Positions 51,616 through 60,993 of a stretch of 64,000 nucleotides of DNA are shown here, one piece after another (positions within the stretch are counted from its first letter, which is position 1; every line of letters begins with the position of its first letter). This DNA is from Paralvinella palmiformis. Lineage: Eukaryota > Annelida > Polychaeta > Terebellida > Alvinellidae. The stretch is from positions 1,206,501 to 1,270,500 of the forward strand of contig JAODUP010000127.1 in assembly GCA_025642065.1 (NCBI GenBank). The letters run 5' to 3'. Made by a program: the position numbers and the translations under genes. The notes under the pieces were generated by a model that saw only the letters and a program-made list of their open reading frames with translations, did not search any database and was not told the origin of the DNA.

Positions 51616-54476
51616 TTAGCTGCAACAGCCTCCCCTTTGTTTTTCTTGGTTGACATACTCTGCCACATTAAACGAAGGCTCATTGGCCTTTCTTAATTTT
51701 CTTGACTTTAAATCTCTGAAAATATGTATGCAAACAATTACCATAAAGAGAAGGTGAGAAACAACAGCTAACCAAATAATGTTTTTTAAATTACACCACT
51801 TATGTTACTGTTACTATTACTATATCATTCACATTTCTTACTGAGTTTTACGTGCATCTTATTGGGCTATCACTGTACAGCACCTTTAAATGGCTCCTGC
51901 TAGTAAGGACACTTTATTAAATCTACATTAATATTAACTGGTTTAATGTTTGTATATGATGTATTTACTGCAAAAATATGCCATGTACACAAATGTGGGT
52001 TTCAGAATTAATTCAAGCTGTAACTGGCAAATAGCTTTAAGAATCTATGGAAACCTTCAAATAAAAATTTGTTTCACAACAGCACAAACATCTTTCTAAT
52101 GATAGACATGAAGAAATTTGAAATATAGTAATATAACTGACATCTCTACTACCATAATCTTCTCTGTATAATGTGCACCTTTTTACTGTTTTCTGTGGGG
52201 TTTTTTTATAGACATATTTTATTGCTAAGGCCATTGTTTTTTGAATACTTGTTTTACAAAGCTGCTGATCACAGCTGAAACTGGCCAGCAGGAAATAAAA
52301 TGTTATTCTTTTTATTATACTTTTGCACTGACCTGCCTGAACACTGTGCAGAAGTGGATTAGCCTAATCCAAGATTGTGATGGGTCAGTTCCTCTTCGAA
52401 ATTATTTCAGTTATTTATAAAGTAAATTGGTCTTCAAGCTTAGAAATCTTGTAAATTTAAAATAATTATAACTCCCCCATCACCAAGAAATATAAATAGT
52501 TCAAACTTTGTGGAGATCTACTTAAAATCGCCATTGAAAATATCACTGTGATAAGGCTAGTGCCGATAAAAGAATATCTGCATTGCTATTTATAATACTG
52601 TAAACTTAACTGAACTGTGTTTATGGTTATTATAATAAATTACTTAATTCCCTTCTGTCTAATTATTATCTTTTATCACCTTCAATTACCAAATGATCAA
52701 AAGGATCTTATACAAAATGGTGCGCAAGTCCAGCTGCACCAAAACTAGGTTTTCTGGATATTTTTCTGGTCAACAAGGGGTGCACATTATACACAAGTGT
52801 GTGCTATACATGGGAGGTCATGGTATTCATTTCTGGTGAAATTTTAAATATTATAAAGGCATGGTGAAAACTAATTACAGTTACATTAATATTTTGAACT
52901 CTGAACCCTGATGAGTACGGATATCCCACCCTGAGTCTGTGTCACTTTCTGACTGACTCAAAATCACTATACTGATAATCAGTCATCCATGTACAGCTAT
53001 CCAAGACAGCATTTAAAACTTATTCTGTCGAGAATTTCCATTTCTGTGCCATTCTGATAGGCCAAAAATTGCTCACAAAAACCTGTGCATTTCATCCGAC
53101 CTTAGGTAGCCAAACACCAGATAAAACATGCTGCGATTGGTTGAAATCCCTTGGTGATCTAATTTTGGATAAAACATTCAGTGATTGGCTGAAATACCCA
53201 GGCCAAATTATGGGTGACAGTCAAGGTTGTGACAATATTGTGTTTGTAAACAAAACATACATGACTCTGGCCTGTTAACATACAAATATTATAAAACCAA
53301 GAAAGTATTTGTTTATGTAACAGTAAATGGATATCAACTGTTCGAGGTTTAATAACATAATATTTCAAAAACTTTGTACATGTTCACCAAATTATAACCA
53401 AATAACAAACCTTGCTATTGCCATAAAAGCTAGTTCCACATTCATTCCTGTCTTGGCACTGGTCTCCATAAAGGCCACATTATATTCCTGTCATGAATCA
53501 CAAAGTCAACAAAAATATTATAACCACTTATTAACAAGGGAACGACTATGAAAATTCACAGCTTTATTTTTTTAAATACCCTTTTCAGAGTACCTGATAA
53601 AACCACATAAAAAATTAATTTAAATTATTTAAAAATGTTAATAAATCATATATTTCTGCAGATATCCAGTGCTGAGTGTCACATATTGAAAAGATCAGAG
53701 TATTTAAATAATAATCAGAATAAACTTTTCCAGTTTAAGATGTTCAAATTAAAAAAAATTCTGGAAGTTTATAGTGATAGAAAATATTAAAGTGAAAAAA
53801 CTTTATCAAAACAAATATTCATTCCCAAATTTTTCTCACGATCTATATTGATTACCAAAATGGGAATCAATGTTGTAATGTTTTTGTTACAAATTCTATT
53901 TAAATATATTTAAAATATGAGAAAATAATTAAAGGCAAGAAAAATAAATAAATTTGAGTCCTGGAATATTGTTTTAGCCTAAATAATTGTTTAAATATTA
54001 GTTACATCAGCTTGACCTATTACTTTAAAAACACCAATACAAATAATATTTATACAAAACATTATTATAACAATAGGATTAATAACTAAATTCAACTATA
54101 AAAATAATCAGCACTCACACGAGCTAGACGTTCTCCATCTTCACGTCTAACAATTCGATCTGAATTCATATCTGCTTTGTTGCCCAGCAACATGATGACA
54201 ACATTGTCTTGAGCATATTCGTTTATTTCAGCAAGCCATGCCTAGAAAACAAAAATCAAAATTAACTGCCACTGTCAAACGTATATAAACAAACCAGATA
54301 ATATTAGACAGTGGGTTTAATTGGAATCTGAGATTCTCAAGTAGAATGATATAGGTGCTTTGATGATATAAAACACTACTAATGTGGACTCCCCCTCAAG
54401 GTACTGCCAGGGCAAGAGACAGGCACCATATTCAGCTGCTCGGAACAATATAAATATGTGCGCATACACACACACA

Positions 54477-54514
<38 letters not shown>

Positions 54515-55313
54515 AACTTTGATCAGGGATATATAATGTTAAACATTGCAAGGACAAAAGAAAAATGTGTGTAAAAATAGTTTAAAAATTTCTGGACAGA
54601 TGCAATATATTAGTGTACACCACTGAAATTATTAGTGTACACCATTTCTATTGAAGCATGTCATCAAAACTTTATTACTCATTTAGATCATTTTATGATG
54701 GGTAATAGATATAAAAAGCTAAATATTTAGAGTGATATTTATCTCATCTTACCCTTATGTTGTCAAAGCTGGCTTTATTTGTGACATCGTACAAAAGAAG
54801 TAAAGCTGGAAAAAAGATACAAAAGTAATGTAATGGTGCATAGATATAAGATGCATATAGGTATATATATTTCATGCATATATTCATTCATGGATGTGGA
54901 TATTTGAATATGTCAGACAAAGTATATGTTAATGGATGCATGTATATATATATATATATATACACACACACATATATATACATATATATATAATATTTCT
55001 TTAAGCACAAATACATATTGGTGTATAGAGCAAAAACTGGAATATCTAAGTACTCAGAGTGTAAGGTAAAAGTTAGTTATGAAAGTTTAGTTATTGGTTG
55101 TAAAATATAAAGAAAATCATATAAACCATATATCATTAATTTAGAAGTGATCAATTCTATCAAAAATAACTAAGATAATATGAGAAGGAAAAAACATAAT
55201 ATAGAGTGAGGACTATATTATTAGTGAATGTTAAATTCCAGGAAGCAGTAATTAACTGTCACGACATGATAATTAAGCTGTTGTGAAGTATTAGATACAA
55301 TGTGTTTCCAAAC

Positions 55314-55347
<34 letters not shown>

Positions 55348-57464
55348 GGCAAGAGATAAACAAAGAATAACAGAGCTAGTTTTTCTGCTTCTTTTTGGTA
55401 ATATCATAAAATGTTAAAGGTACAACAATTAATAACGTTAAACTGTTTGGAAACAGACTATTATGAAGAACAACGCAACTAAAAGTTTGGAGTAAAATAG
55501 CACAAATATGATTAAATCCCTATAAAATACATCTGGATTAAGTTCCAAATGATGCAGAACAAGAACGGGTGTATCACAATACTCACAGTGACCGGCAGGT
55601 CATCATCATACATTTATCATCAACATTCACCGACAAGCTTATTTACACAGGTAGAAAGATAATTTCCCATATCATCATCTAAAATATGTATTATATATAA
55701 TGGATGTTGAATATTGCAAAACTGTACACTTACTATAGACAACATCAACAAACTATAATGATATTATGAACAACAAAACACATTCAATTAAGTGTTTCAG
55801 CTGATAAAAATTATCTTTGTACTCTTGGTTTCAAGTGTTAAACTGGGAAATTGTTGGTAATGGCTTGTGTGGGTGTTAGAAAAGGCTTCCCTTGATAAAA
55901 ACAATTGGATTTCTAGATGTCTTTTATTATTGCTAAATACTTAATTCTATCAATTTGACCATTTATGAACTCATAATTAGTGCATTTCAGTTCATGTCTA
56001 ACACAGAAGTTTTCGCTAATAAAACTAAGTGGAAAATTTAGAAATATGTATTTATTCTGGGGATATTAGCAGTGTGCCCATGAATTATATTCTAGTAAGT
56101 GACCTTTAACCCATTTATCCTGATTGCCAAATCCGTAGCTTTAAAGATGTTACCACAAGATCACGCAGAAAAATAAAGTTGATACAATGAAAGCATCTTA
56201 ACAATTCTCCTTTTTCTGGCATATTACAGAAGATACATTTAAATAGAAACATAAACATGTATAATTTTATCAATATTAGAAATATAACAAAATTAGTGAT
56301 TTTAGGTAAAAATAGTTTGTGTTTTATTTATCAGATAAATGAACTATTTGTGTAACCTGAATGACAGACTGATAATGAAGCACAAAGTGGTTAGAATGAA
56401 ACACAGCCAGCGCTGTTGGTTCAAATAATCAGTGATACATGCAGTATTACACATAATACAGAGGTACGAAAGACACAAAATCTTGGTTGGACAACGAGCA
56501 TGATTATTGGTCAGGTACCTGTATGCGAAGGATGAGGTATAACAGACGAAGCAGACAGCTAACAATGGAATACCATTCAGATGTAACTGGGTTAGGAAAC
56601 TCAAACGTATTTTGCTGTATCAAAGCTTTATATCGACAGAAGTAATTAATATTAAACTGAGGGTATTACCGTAGAATCTGTTTCGTTACAACTGCAGGCA
56701 TATAAACTGTATGTTAAACATTGTATGCATCTGTGTGTTTGTGCGTGTGTGTGTGTGTGGGGGGGGGACGATGCGAGTGCAATTTACCCCTTTTCTTCAT
56801 TGATTAGAGAACTGATTTATGTTTTCATGCTACGACTATAAATAACTACTTTTTAACAACAACAACCACAACAACCGCAACAACCACATGGACAGCAATA
56901 AAAACAACATCAATGACAAACTAATGAACCTCCACAATACAATAACATAGTACTTTGTGTGGATACTTTATCTCTTTCTGGTCATTTCCAGGTCTTAATT
57001 TAAACAATTTTATACGACGACAACAACACGTTTAGATAATATACAACAGACATGGGGTCGAATCCATTTTGTCAATTCCAATTCCGGAATTGCCCACCAG
57101 TTCCAATTCTGGAATTGAATTGACCCCATGTCCGGTGTACAATAAATTGGGGGGGGGGGAGTTGCGTGATAGCCAAATCGGACAGCTGTACCATTAGCAT
57201 CTCTGTAATATGCATGCGTAACACTACGAAACCTCTCCTGTCCTGCTGTGTCCCAAATCTGAAAGTACAGTTATATATACACGGTGAAGTATTGTGCTAT
57301 GTACACCAGGCTGTGTGCGCGTGCTGCACTGTATGAGAAATAAGAGTGAGAAGATAAGTGAGAAGATTATACTCTAACTAACGACGTATCACACAGTACT
57401 GATAGAAGAACGTCTAAATTGAGATTTCAACGACCACAGCCACATTAACAAGTAGCACATCATT

Positions 57465-57497
<33 letters not shown>

Positions 57498-60400
57498 AAA
57501 TGTATGAGTGTGTGTGTGTGTTATTATAGGAACACAGGACATGTAATATAATTAAGTGCTGTAACTGTTATGCAGTTTTTGTGATGATAATATTGTTGTA
57601 ATTAATGTTCTAATGGTTACAATGTTGTTGTTGTTATTATTAGATTGTAACTGTTACAATGCTACAGTAGGCACTATATAATAGATTTTACAATCATGCA
57701 GTGATTACAATGTTGAATTAGTTGAAATATTGTAACAGTTAGCACTGTTGTAACTGGTTACAAACAACATCATGGTAGTTTCATAGTTGTAGCAAGTACA
57801 ACATACCGCAATTATTACAACATTTTAATAACTACAAAATATTACTAATGCTGTCATTCAAAATTTGCTGTTTATTGGTATATATTAAATATTACACTTA
57901 GCCCACAGCAACATGTTTAAGTGACCATTAATGATGAAAGAACATCATCATAATGGTCTATGTACAATCAAGATGCCAGTCATACAGGGTTCATAAAGGT
58001 CTGCCACTAATCTTTGTATTACGACCTGTCATAAAGCAAGAATAACTTGACTTCACTATTGGCTGTATCACAACTAACAATTCTCTATTAAAACTAAAAA
58101 ATATAGAAAACCACTTCCAGGTTTAGCCTCCTATTAATGCTAATCAACACAATCATGTGAACATATCTACTGGCTAAATGGCACTGAACACAGGAAGAAC
58201 ATAGTACGTCGAATATAGTACTCATTTTAATATAATGTCGAAACAAGTAATGGTAATGATAGCATTCATAATGTCTAGTAAATAGACATATTTCTGACTT
58301 GCTACAGTAATCTTCTAATATAAAGGCAAAATGCCCCCTTCCATATCTAAAATGTAATCACATGAACAGGTATCAGAAAAAATAACTGATAATATTCACA
58401 GGCTATTAATGAAATTAATAAATTTCACACACACACACACAAAAATACACATTGAATTGTGTTGTCATATCTTTCAGAATGATCTAAGATACAATCAATT
58501 ACATTGGTTAACTATCTTGTATTGCATTACTTTAATAACTTTGTCCTAATTGTATTGCCATATCTGGTAAGAACAATATTAATAACACAACATGGAGAAA
58601 AGAAATGAGAATTATTTTAATATTAATATAGTTCTGTATTACTTTTAAAACTAAACTAGAGATTAAAACAAACATGCCACTATGTCATGGCTGATAATAC
58701 AACTGAACATTACACTCCATGAGGCAGTGTTGTTAGAAGCAGTGAAAAACATATGATATTAGGGAAATATATAAAATGTGCTTTATTAGAGTAATAACAA
58801 TACCAGTGGCAGGCTGTGTTTTATGATACTACAGGTGTCAGTGTGTTTAGAATGATAATCTAAAGATTTAAAAAAAAAATCAAAATAGTAGAACAGTTAG
58901 ATGAAGCACTATGTTAGATTCTTAAAATCCACCTTTTTAAATTGCCCTATTTACTAAACTTAGGTTAAAATGCAAGACATTTTTATTTTGCCATCTATAT
59001 GAGCCTCTAAAGTTATTTAGCTAATTAAAATAATTTTTATGATTATTATTATTATTGTGAGCAAGCTAAATACTGTAAAGTGTAAAGAAAGTCCTTTGAT
59101 TAATCCAAGTATTGTGATCAACTTTAATGCTCTGATGTTACTGAACATTATGTCTGGTATTAATAATTAACAATCCAAACTGGTTTTTTAGCAAATTTTG
59201 TTTAAAGGTAAAAACTACCACATTTCATTCAAATTGGAAAACGAGCTTTCAAGAGAGAAAAAAATTAACTACTAATATTTTCTACGTTATTTTTCACTGT
59301 AAATCCGCGGAATTATTGTCTTATTAACTCTACTGATAAAACTGTGATAGACACCTATCGGAAGTATATTATCAGACTACTGTTCAAGGAACAAAATAAT
59401 TCCATTTTTGTGTTACCCAGAATGCAACTGAAATGATAATTCAAATTAAAAAGGTTAGGCACAAAGTTCAGCCACCAATTCTCACACCTCATGCTTAAGA
59501 GCTGAATTAAAGAGAGAGAAAAAGGTTTTCACCCCACAACCAGAAAACAGAGAGTGGACAAAGAACAAAACGAAGAATGAAGATTAAACGACCAGCTATC
59601 AGAGAGAATGGTTCTACTAGCTGAAGAAGGAACAAGTGGGACAGAATCATTCTGTCCAACGCGTTTTGGCACATACCCTCGGCATCGCGGTAATAGGCCC
59701 TCGTTATACTACGGAACCTCTCTTGGCCAGCTGTGTCCCAGATCTAATGTATGCCAGAGAAATGTCATACTTAAGCTTAACGCCAACATGGCCATTGAAA
59801 AATGTCGTGATGTCAATAGGAGGTCGGACAACACTTAATCGAAGCAATCGTTTCTGCCAATTATCATGCAAACGAAAATAAACTCTCTATATATGGTAAA
59901 TGTTTAGCCTGAATGTCTTCCTTACCTTGTAGTTCTATTAAAACAATGTTATGATCAATTATTAGGCAAACTGTACGAAATTTAAGGCCAGATGTAAACA
60001 AATAATTTTTATAAATGGGCACTCCGGAGACCAAAACAATGGTCACCATGACAACCATTAACCTCAGAACGTCATCAAACTATTTAGTCAGCTCATTAAA
60101 TACTCATGGTAATGTAAGTATTATTATTATTGGAATTCTGCACTTATTATGGCTCGTAATAAAAGGTTTCCTCAATCGTGTACTAGGTTCAGTCAGCAAC
60201 TATCATTTACCTGCCTAATAACTCGATAAACCACCCGAATCTAGCCCTAATTCAATGAAACTGGTAGAGACTACGTCTATCAGATCATCGTTCAGTTGAG
60301 TTGTTTAGTTTCATTGCCGGCCACACGTAGGATGTGTGGTCAAGAGGCATCAGCCTCGGCAAACAGATCCCACAAAAGTAGGGATGAGCTGGAATCAAAT

Positions 60401-60993
60401 CCACAATCTGGAGATTTCCAGTGCAGTACACCAACCACTGCACCATCATAATGACCTCTATCACTTTCATGTGACATTATATCTAACTATCTTCGAACGA
60501 CGTAAACATTGCATATTCGGGATAGCAAATAAACGAAGGAATAACAACAACAATGACACCAACAAAATACGAAACAGTGAAGCTATCAATTCTAACATGA
60601 AAAAAGATTCTACGGTACTGCCGACAAACTTAAAAAAAGGATTAAATTTAGAAACAGAAATCTTCTTCAATTCAAAATTTCAAATTTGAACAACATTCTT
60701 AACAATCATGCTACAATGAATATGATTTTTCATAGTTATTAACGAGTCAATATATATTAATTAAAAACATTTATTACAACATTTTAAAGAATATCTAGAA
60801 TTACTGATTTAAGCTTAATATCTAATATATAGTAGAGATGTTTGATTTTTACAGCCATTTTTGTGCACATCGTAGACTAAATCGGCCGACTAAGAGCAAT
60901 TTATAATCATTAAATACTTTGTTATTCAAACCACAATGTAATAATGCATACCTGTAATTTGACCTTTGTTCCATCAACATTTACGACTTTATT
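51616..60993 (-). CDS. RAB37: Rab37/Rab26-family small GTPase, 5' part off the window
   Basis: Minus-strand exons: 60952-60993 ([14 protein letters not shown]), alternative 59677-59743 or 57192-57258 ([11 protein letters not shown]3 box and switch II), 54753-54805 ([17 protein letters not shown]), 54119-54241 (GNKAD guanine-binding box), 53411-53487 (METSAKTG, G5 box), 51616-51715 (C-terminal tail). About 153 residues are visible; exons with the P-loop and switch I lie to the right of the window. The tail [11 protein letters not shown] ... GGCCS fits Rab37 better than Rab26 and carries a CC prenylation site. The family controls regulated secretion and vesicle docking. All junctions are GT-AG and in phase. 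Introns hold MITE copies and microsatellites. Most notable are the two alternative switch II exons, described separately. Confidence 0.93.
51865..51920 (+). repeat. LINE 3' tail fragment
   Basis: CTGTACAGCACCTTTAAATG then GCTCCTGCTAGTAAGGACAC matches the tail at 48780-48840. It lies in a Rab37 intron. Confidence 0.5.
52157..52797. mobile_element. TIR element (TATAATGTGCACC ends) with nested MITE
   Basis: TATAATGTGCACC at 52158-52170 and GGTGCACATTATAC at 52780-52796 form an inverted pair about 640 bp apart. MITE family 2 copy 2 (52228-52620) lies inside, so one element inserted into the other. It lies in the last Rab37 intron. Confidence 0.55.
52228..52620 (+). mobile_element. MITE family 2, copy 2
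   Basis: It is colinear with 15068-15655: ggccattgttttttgaatac, then cagaagtggattagcctaat, cttagaaatcttgtaaattt and actttgtggagatctactta. Its right end is lost. Confidence 0.65.
53105..53205. repeat. two diverged tandem units, about 50 bp
   Basis: agataaaacatgctgcgatt then ggttgaaatccc is followed by ggataaaacattcagtgatt then ggctgaaataccc. It lies in the last Rab37 intron. Confidence 0.5.
54479..55343. repeat. (TA)n arrays in Rab37 introns
   Basis: (AT)n at 54479-54508, interrupted TA/CA at 54943-54990 and (AT)n at 55317-55343, around the exon at 54753-54805. Confidence 0.88.
57049..57132. repeat. palindromic hairpin downstream of Rab37 exon B donor
   Basis: GACATGGGGTC (57049-57059) pairs perfectly with GACCCCATGTC (57122-57132). 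The interior holds further ggaattg/caattcc complementarity. In transcript order it starts about 60 nt after the exon B donor site. It is related to the repeat at 3700-3995. Confidence 0.75.
57192..57258 (-). CDS. RAB37: Rab37 alternative switch II exon B ([11 protein letters not shown])
   Basis: A 67-nt exon (22 codons plus 1 nt). The acceptor is ctgtactttcag and the donor G/gtacag. It enters in phase 0 after ...KVKLQ and leaves with one G, which joins CT of the next exon to make Ala. It encodes [10 protein letters not shown] then [12 protein letters not shown], the canonical Rab26/Rab37 version. It is the same length and phase as exon A. Confidence 0.93.
57470..57490 (+). repeat. (GA)n microsatellite
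   Basis: About ten GA units in the intron between alternative exons A and B, followed by a short GT tract at 57509-57520. Confidence 0.85.
59639..59657. repeat. 9-bp perfect inverted repeat beside exon A donor
   Basis: GGACAGAAT (59639-59647) and ATTCTGTCC (59649-59657) are separated by one base. In transcript order the repeat begins about 18 nt after the exon A donor. It could fold in the pre-mRNA, though the loop would have to open the innermost pairs. Confidence 0.7.
59677..59743 (-). CDS. RAB37: Rab37 alternative switch II exon A ([11 protein letters not shown])
   Basis: A 67-nt exon upstream of exon B in transcript order. The acceptor is catacattag (weak pyrimidine tract) and the donor G/gtatgt (strong). 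It encodes [10 protein letters not shown] then [12 protein letters not shown]. Against exon B it changes Val to Ile, His to Arg and Asn to Glu, while the nucleotide sequence has diverged widely at third positions. That pattern argues for long-maintained selection on the protein and against a recent copy or pseudoexon. Exit phase equals exon B. Confidence 0.9.
60305..60462 (-). repeat. tRNA-like SINE fragment
   Basis: On the minus strand TGGTGCAGTGGTTGGTG (A-box-like) precedes GGATTTGATTCC (B-box-like). It lies in the Rab37 intron before exon A. Confidence 0.4.
60838..60894 (-). repeat. SINE family 1 tail fragment
   Basis: The ttttgtgcacatcgtagact then aaatcggccga stretch matches the body end of the SINE at 861-1028. 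Confidence 0.5.

Follow-up and report, generated by a model that had tools for sequence, protein, structure and literature searches.

The 64,000-nucleotide stretch of DNA analyzed here, from the hydrothermal-vent annelid Paralvinella palmiformis (Alvinellidae; assembly GCA_025642065.1, contig JAODUP010000127.1, positions 1,206,501 to 1,270,500; hereafter the window) carries on its minus strand a gene for a small GTPase of the Rab26/37 type, in which two homologous versions of the exon encoding switch II lie one behind the other. The alternative exon, A, occupies positions 59677..59743, and the canonical exon, B, positions 57192..57258; each is 67 nucleotides (nt) long, comprising 22 codons and a G. 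Both are placed between a constitutive exon of 42 nt ending in KVKLQ (60952..60993) and a constitutive exon of 53 nt starting with LLLLYDVTN (54753..54805), and the introns measure 1,208 nt before A, 2,418 nt from A to B, and 2,386 nt after B. On the same strand follow coding exons at 54119..54241 and 53411..53487 and the last coding exon at 51616..51715, which ends in a double cysteine, presumably serving in prenylation.

The tandem pair of switch II exons

Exons A and B are homologous and stand next to each other in one gene, with shared neighbors, equal size, and equal phases. Each is preceded by AG and followed by GT, so that both have canonical splice sites, and each is entered in phase 0 and left in phase 1. 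Joining the exons in silico, we found that A alone or B alone gives an open frame through to ...EKQRGGCCS*, with the WDTAGQE (G3) motif and the C-terminal cysteines intact in either isoform. Inclusion of both exons leads to a stop at the 12th codon past exon A, and skipping of both leads to a stop within the next exon. Because each exon is 67 nt long, and two or none bring about a premature stop, exclusivity is enforced at least by the reading frame. The sizes, coordinates, borders, phases, and peptides of the two exons, as well as the effects of double inclusion and double skipping, had been proposed in an initial annotation made from the sequence, and all of them are confirmed; its claim that only one exon can be used is borne out by the frame. 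Incompatibility of U2 and U12 splice sites, or an intron too short to be spliced, was also considered as the cause of exclusivity and is not supported, as GT-AG borders are found on both exons and the intron between them measures 2,418 nt.

At the nucleotide level, A and B are identical at 51 of 67 positions, and 11 of the 16 differences fall on third codon positions. They differ at only 3 of 22 residues but at about 70% of synonymous sites. With the NG86 method, the nonsynonymous rate (dN) is 0.135, the synonymous rate (dS) is about 2.1, a saturated value, and dN/dS is about 0.06, in agreement with the earlier claim of wide synonymous divergence under a nearly unchanged protein. Judging by these rates, purifying selection on the pair is strong. 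The 120-nt flanks of A and B are no more similar to each other than shuffled sequence; together with the saturated dS, this argues against both a recent duplication and a repeat created in assembly. It forms the longest direct repeat in 54806-60951, and tblastn of the minus strand between 50,000 and 104,000, a range covering the window and 40 kb upstream, showed no third copy of the exon.

The splice signals of the two exons are unequal. The donor of exon A (GTATGT) scores 7.5 and that of exon B (GTACAG) 2.8 on a rough matrix of splice-site frequencies. The acceptor of exon A ends in ATTAG, and the acceptors of A and B each contain 59% pyrimidines; the content is 73-82% at the exons beginning at 60993, 54805, and 54241, but 59% at 53487 and 64% at 51715. 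Low-pyrimidine acceptors and such donor scores fit regulated exons without proving regulation. RNA pairing was considered as a control of the choice between A and B. Among 97 inverted repeats in 54806-60951, runs of TA or CA/TG make up 23 of the 25 longest. Of the remaining two, one is a hairpin on the minus strand with 32-nt arms (57037-57068 and 57113-57144), 78% complementary and 44 nt apart, which starts some 50 nt beyond the donor of exon B. Only 2 of 200 shuffles fold as well (z -2.6, for a region chosen after the fact), and the hairpin may be a splicing element or a small mobile one. Counts of splicing-factor motifs gave nothing to build on.

Gene identity and records in other animals

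The initial annotation had assigned the gene to Rab37. Membership of the Rab family stands, as the protein contains a Pfam Ras domain (209 bits), while Rab37 alone is too narrow a name and Rab26/37 fits better. Compared with solved structures, the joined protein matches human Rab26 best (2g6b, E 7.9e-47), followed by Rab8A (7.7e-32), and its named relatives among the matches listed are mostly called Rab-26 or Rab-37. One vertebrate Rab37 and one Rab26-like protein are joined in our tree with a support of 91/86, which is under the mark set by the tool; this join makes Rab26/37 the better name. The closest proteins among the matches listed are P0189, from a contig of 1,331 bases and 98% identical to the B isoform, and a protein of Capitella (90%). 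Searching the whole assembly returned at least 43 Rab-like matches, of which three lie on this contig and come from this gene, and the other 40 (a count that is a lower bound) are only 27-70% identical. One Rab26/37 gene was thus detected in the assembly, and it spans about 27 kb between the first and last coding exons found.

The deposited P. palmiformis model P0202 (LSH36_127g12012) reproduces six of the eight exon peptides exactly, the two that it lacks being exon B and the LLLLYDVTN exon. After exon A, it uses 56 nt of intron sequence (58859-58804) as an exon in place of the LLLLYDVTN exon. At the exon pair, this model is an annotation error and not evidence of splicing. A gene finder that keeps the frame and meets two exclusive exons would yield a model of this kind; gene finders stumble on such a pair, and the deposited model is wrong there.

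To follow the two exons in other animals, 255 proteins were collected from the best 120 of 4,916, 4,063, and 7,976 matches, and 252 of them were typed by one switch II residue, with Arg or Lys defining the A type and His or Asn the B type. The three untyped proteins are P0025 from a wasp (SVTHSYYRDAH, B-like), P0036 from a bdelloid rotifer, and P0121, which is a different kind of fly Rab. In one of the searches, exon A was scored after masking of its last residue and the greater part of the downstream flank, a setting under which A motifs in other animals were expected to outrank B motifs. The rotifer model P0036 (Rotaria sordida) ranked second in that search and departs from the motif past SITR; it is a fusion of pieces from two Rab-like domains, and an A-like exon of rotifers might be concealed in it. 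Species names for the taxon counts were copied by hand from the listings, and all counts and distributions given below hold among the matches listed.

Of the 48 named spiralian taxa, 31 (molluscs, annelids, one brachiopod, and one bryozoan) have the A type, against none of the 96 named non-spiralian taxa among the matches listed; the latter consist of 74 vertebrates, 18 arthropods, and one lancelet, one cnidarian, one echinoderm, and one hemichordate. The initial annotation had named beforehand the absence of a second exon from related species as a ground for regarding exon A as a relic; the spiralian records show that such an exon does exist in related species. Both types are present in 13 spiralian taxa (12 molluscs and Lingula), A alone in 18, and B alone in 17; Paralvinella itself is scored as A-type alone owing to its model P0202. 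In 12 of the 13 species with both types, A and B records lie on source sequences of equal size, and C. gigas, the 13th, has them as isoforms X4 and X3. Protein records of both isoforms, apparently from one gene and in part automatic predictions, are available from 13 other species. In Mytilus edulis, a single model (P0001) runs through A and then part of B, the same tandem order as in the window, and its source sequence matches in size those of the A isoform P0006 and the B isoform P0088. Among the typed phylum-level groups, the single bryozoan is the only one in which the B type was not seen; the one named cnidarian has it. Exon A is probably the derived copy, which on this distribution would have arisen in an early lophotrochozoan.

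The three residue changes in and beside switch II that had been described for the pair are present in the window, but their diagnostic value across phyla is unequal. Only Arg or Lys versus His or Asn separates A from B consistently. Ile is usual in A, yet gastropods, Lingula, beetles, and a hydrozoan have it in B-type proteins as well, so that the Ile/Val difference holds mostly, and the last differing residue (E, N, Q, or H) varies and does not tell the types apart. Two variants of the motif may be recorded here. A cephalopod-like pair consists of A-type SITRGYYRDAN (P0058, P0046) and B-type SVTNAYYRDAH (P0213, P0116), with Asn in place of His. In P0145, the X1 form of Oncorhynchus mykiss Rab37, THAYYRDAH is present twice with a short insert, possibly through an alternative acceptor or a partial exon duplication.

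A tree was built from proteins with the switch II exon removed; its 42 rows are the window protein and 41 of 43 proteins chosen from the 255, P0190 and P0181 being left out because the start of their P-loop was not located. In most cases, A and B rows intermingle according to lineage: the A form of Sinanodonta pairs with the B form of Potamilus (100/99), P0058 (A) with the B form of Octopus (100/99), and the A form of C. gigas with P0201 (B) (100/96). Such mixing indicates that one gene makes both forms. The tree differs from the species tree in that two nemerteans nest within the molluscs. A second paralogue or a retrocopy as the source of the A type is argued against by the genome search and by the lineage mixing of most A and B rows.

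Further records resemble transcripts. Fourteen A-type proteins of 190-293 amino acids are encoded on contigs of 0.9-2.6 kb, which could not hold a gene whose introns run to kilobases; these proteins probably derive from spliced mRNA. Among oyster records, the A entries P0020 and P0018 represent 51 and 27 contigs, and the B entries P0200, P0197, and P0204 represent 4, 1, and 1, counts that are rough owing to clustering. P0018, P0197, and P0204 are identical to C. gigas P0020 at 222-225 of 226 positions.

Proposed function and origin of the exon pair

We consider it very likely that A and B are a genuine mutually exclusive exon pair, duplicated in tandem in an early lophotrochozoan, which provides two GTPases with variant partner surfaces. 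We infer a single origin of exon A and a regulated choice between A and B in P. palmiformis. In the proposed course of events, the switch II exon would have been duplicated in tandem in an early lophotrochozoan, after which the upstream copy, A, would have diverged. The resulting GTPases would share their GTP-binding motifs and differ at the partner face formed by alpha2 and switch II, where A offers Ile-Arg and B offers Val-His. Products with both exons or with neither would be out of frame and probably degraded.

The position of the changed residues can be compared with a Rab of known structure. By alignment offset to 6y7g, the Ile/Val site corresponds to I95 and the Arg/His site to T97 of Rab3C. 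According to a structural report, Y92, I95, and Y99 in switch II of Rab3C form a hydrophobic contact with the effector Rep15 (PMC9308819), and a single switch II change in Rab3A, Y84F, cuts Rep15 binding 20-fold (PMC9308819). The Arg/His site, T97, falls between the contacts I95 and Y99. Since the Ile/Val site aligns with a Rep15 contact in Rab3C and a single switch II change has such an effect, an altered partner preference is plausible, and the exchange of A and B could plausibly change the preference for a guanine nucleotide exchange factor, a GTPase-activating protein, or an effector on secretory vesicles.

A comparable case is human RAB6A and RAB6A', which arise from the alternative use of a tandem duplicated exon, differ in three residues in or near switch II, and have been reported to have different partners. 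The pair described here is similar in being a duplicated Rab exon with three residue changes in or near switch II; it differs in belonging to another Rab subfamily, Rab26/37 and not Rab6, and in stemming from a separate event. Homologous tandem exons described in a published study are likewise used one or the other, ancient, and strongly constrained, and fine-tune one region of a protein. RAB6A, small GTPases, and RAC1 do not appear in the main text of that study, and the case described here is spiralian. No description of the A/B pair in Rab26/37 was found in a literature search that left subscription journals mostly outside its scope. Rab identity is usually seen as one gene with one switch surface, and a conserved exchange of three residues in and beside switch II is a natural minimal pair for partner choice by Rab proteins. 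If exon A is orthologous across its phyla, it predates the split of molluscs, annelids, and brachiopods.

Several observations weigh against this interpretation. Two nemerteans and Capitella show B alone among the matches listed, and many mollusc isoforms are automatic predictions, which are prone to over-combine exons. The cross-phylum orthology of exon A depends on few residues. The A-type proteins P0019, P0125, P0127, and P0130 lie outside the rest under midpoint rooting, three of them on long branches, and may come from a separate gene. For P. palmiformis itself, the deposited model P0202 has exon A only in broken form, all 14 short-contig A proteins are at most 86.4% identical to the A isoform of the window, and P0189, the sole near-identical transcript-derived protein among the matches listed, uses B.

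The alternative that survives best is dose control by poison exons, in which double inclusion or double skipping, arising by splicing error or by regulation, would be the main role of the pair and lower the amount of Rab26/37 through nonsense-mediated decay, and the peptide differences would be incidental. The early stops in both mis-spliced products are what such control would employ. We nevertheless hold it to be improbable, as Arg or Lys is kept, by definition of the type, in A proteins of molluscs, annelids, a brachiopod, and a bryozoan, in which the rest of the exon is kept too, and as full-frame A proteins occur on short contigs, C. gigas P0020 alone standing for 51 of them. Somewhat less probable still is that exon A is a relic in P. 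palmiformis, inherited but hardly spliced, with B as the sole working form. The use of B by P0189, and the absence of a near-identical A transcript among the matches listed, agree with it; the intact splice sites of exon A, its donor scoring above that of B on the rough matrix, its frame free of stops, the mere three residue changes despite saturated synonymous change, and the A-type transcripts in other lineages all speak against it. That exon A is part of another Rab gene, or of a retrocopy, within the intron has next to no probability: Arg at this switch II site is also seen in Rab4 (SVTRSYYR), but A shares borders, phases, and size with B, has no Rab exons of its own alongside, matches Rab26 and not Rab4 best among solved structures, and is joined to ordinary Rab26/37 flanks elsewhere. 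The conserved choice between A and B looks like an old, working splicing switch and not like a relic.

The upstream switch I choice and neighboring features

Beyond the window, with its numbering continued on the minus strand, lie two exons for the P-loop and switch I, each of 111 nt with AG and GT borders. One encodes TVGIGFT (79733-79623; L002 5733-5623), a G form that replaces the Asp of VGIDF, and the other encodes TVGIDFR (67845-67735; L001 3845-3735). The first coding exon of the TVGIDFR form, MENSWRNGHAANGMLDSRSGELHDIACK (78472-78389; L002 4472-4389), matches the start of P0189 and is placed between the two. Since the D form has its start exon downstream of the G exon, two promoters are suggested, and the choice of switch I would be made by alternative promoters; no first exon was found for the G form. 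Records with TVGIGFT and records with TVGIDFR exist for vertebrates, insects, molluscs, and brachiopods alike. Each of the exons has 37 codons, and their joint inclusion keeps the frame; some vertebrate and arthropod models (P0193, P0243, and others) join both and hence have two P-loops. The N-terminal isoforms of vertebrate RAB37 (PMC9714508) offer a parallel, since vertebrate and insect records carry TVGIGFT or TVGIDFR as the upstream exons do here. At switch II vertebrates differ, all 74 named vertebrate taxa among the matches listed being B-type.

The exon pair probably combines with this older upstream choice: the promoter used would set switch I, and splicing would then pick A or B for switch II. 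All four combinations are represented in Mytilus edulis by P0004 (G, A), P0009 (D, A), P0093 (D, B), and P0103 (G, B), which are predicted isoforms with source sequences of equal size. We tentatively propose, at somewhat less than even chances, that lophotrochozoan Rab26/37 forms a two-by-two set of GTPases, in which a very old switch I choice by alternative promoters is multiplied by an independent spiralian switch II choice. If so, both partner-reading surfaces of one secretory Rab would be separately programmable by cell type. The pair alone is of the RAB6A-like kind already known, and what sets the present case apart is that the gene has a switch I choice in addition; we know of no second alternative switch I exon in RAB6A.

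Other features of the window, all on the minus strand, include a neighboring gene at 35144-30043 with leucine-rich-repeat frames followed by coiled-coil frames, which we take to be LRRC45-like. Interrupted frames at 44113-43049 resemble a non-LTR (long terminal repeat) reverse transcriptase, the FADDTKLF within them presumably being a motif of that enzyme, and a frame at 42470-42240 seems to resemble the C-terminal part of a hAT transposase.

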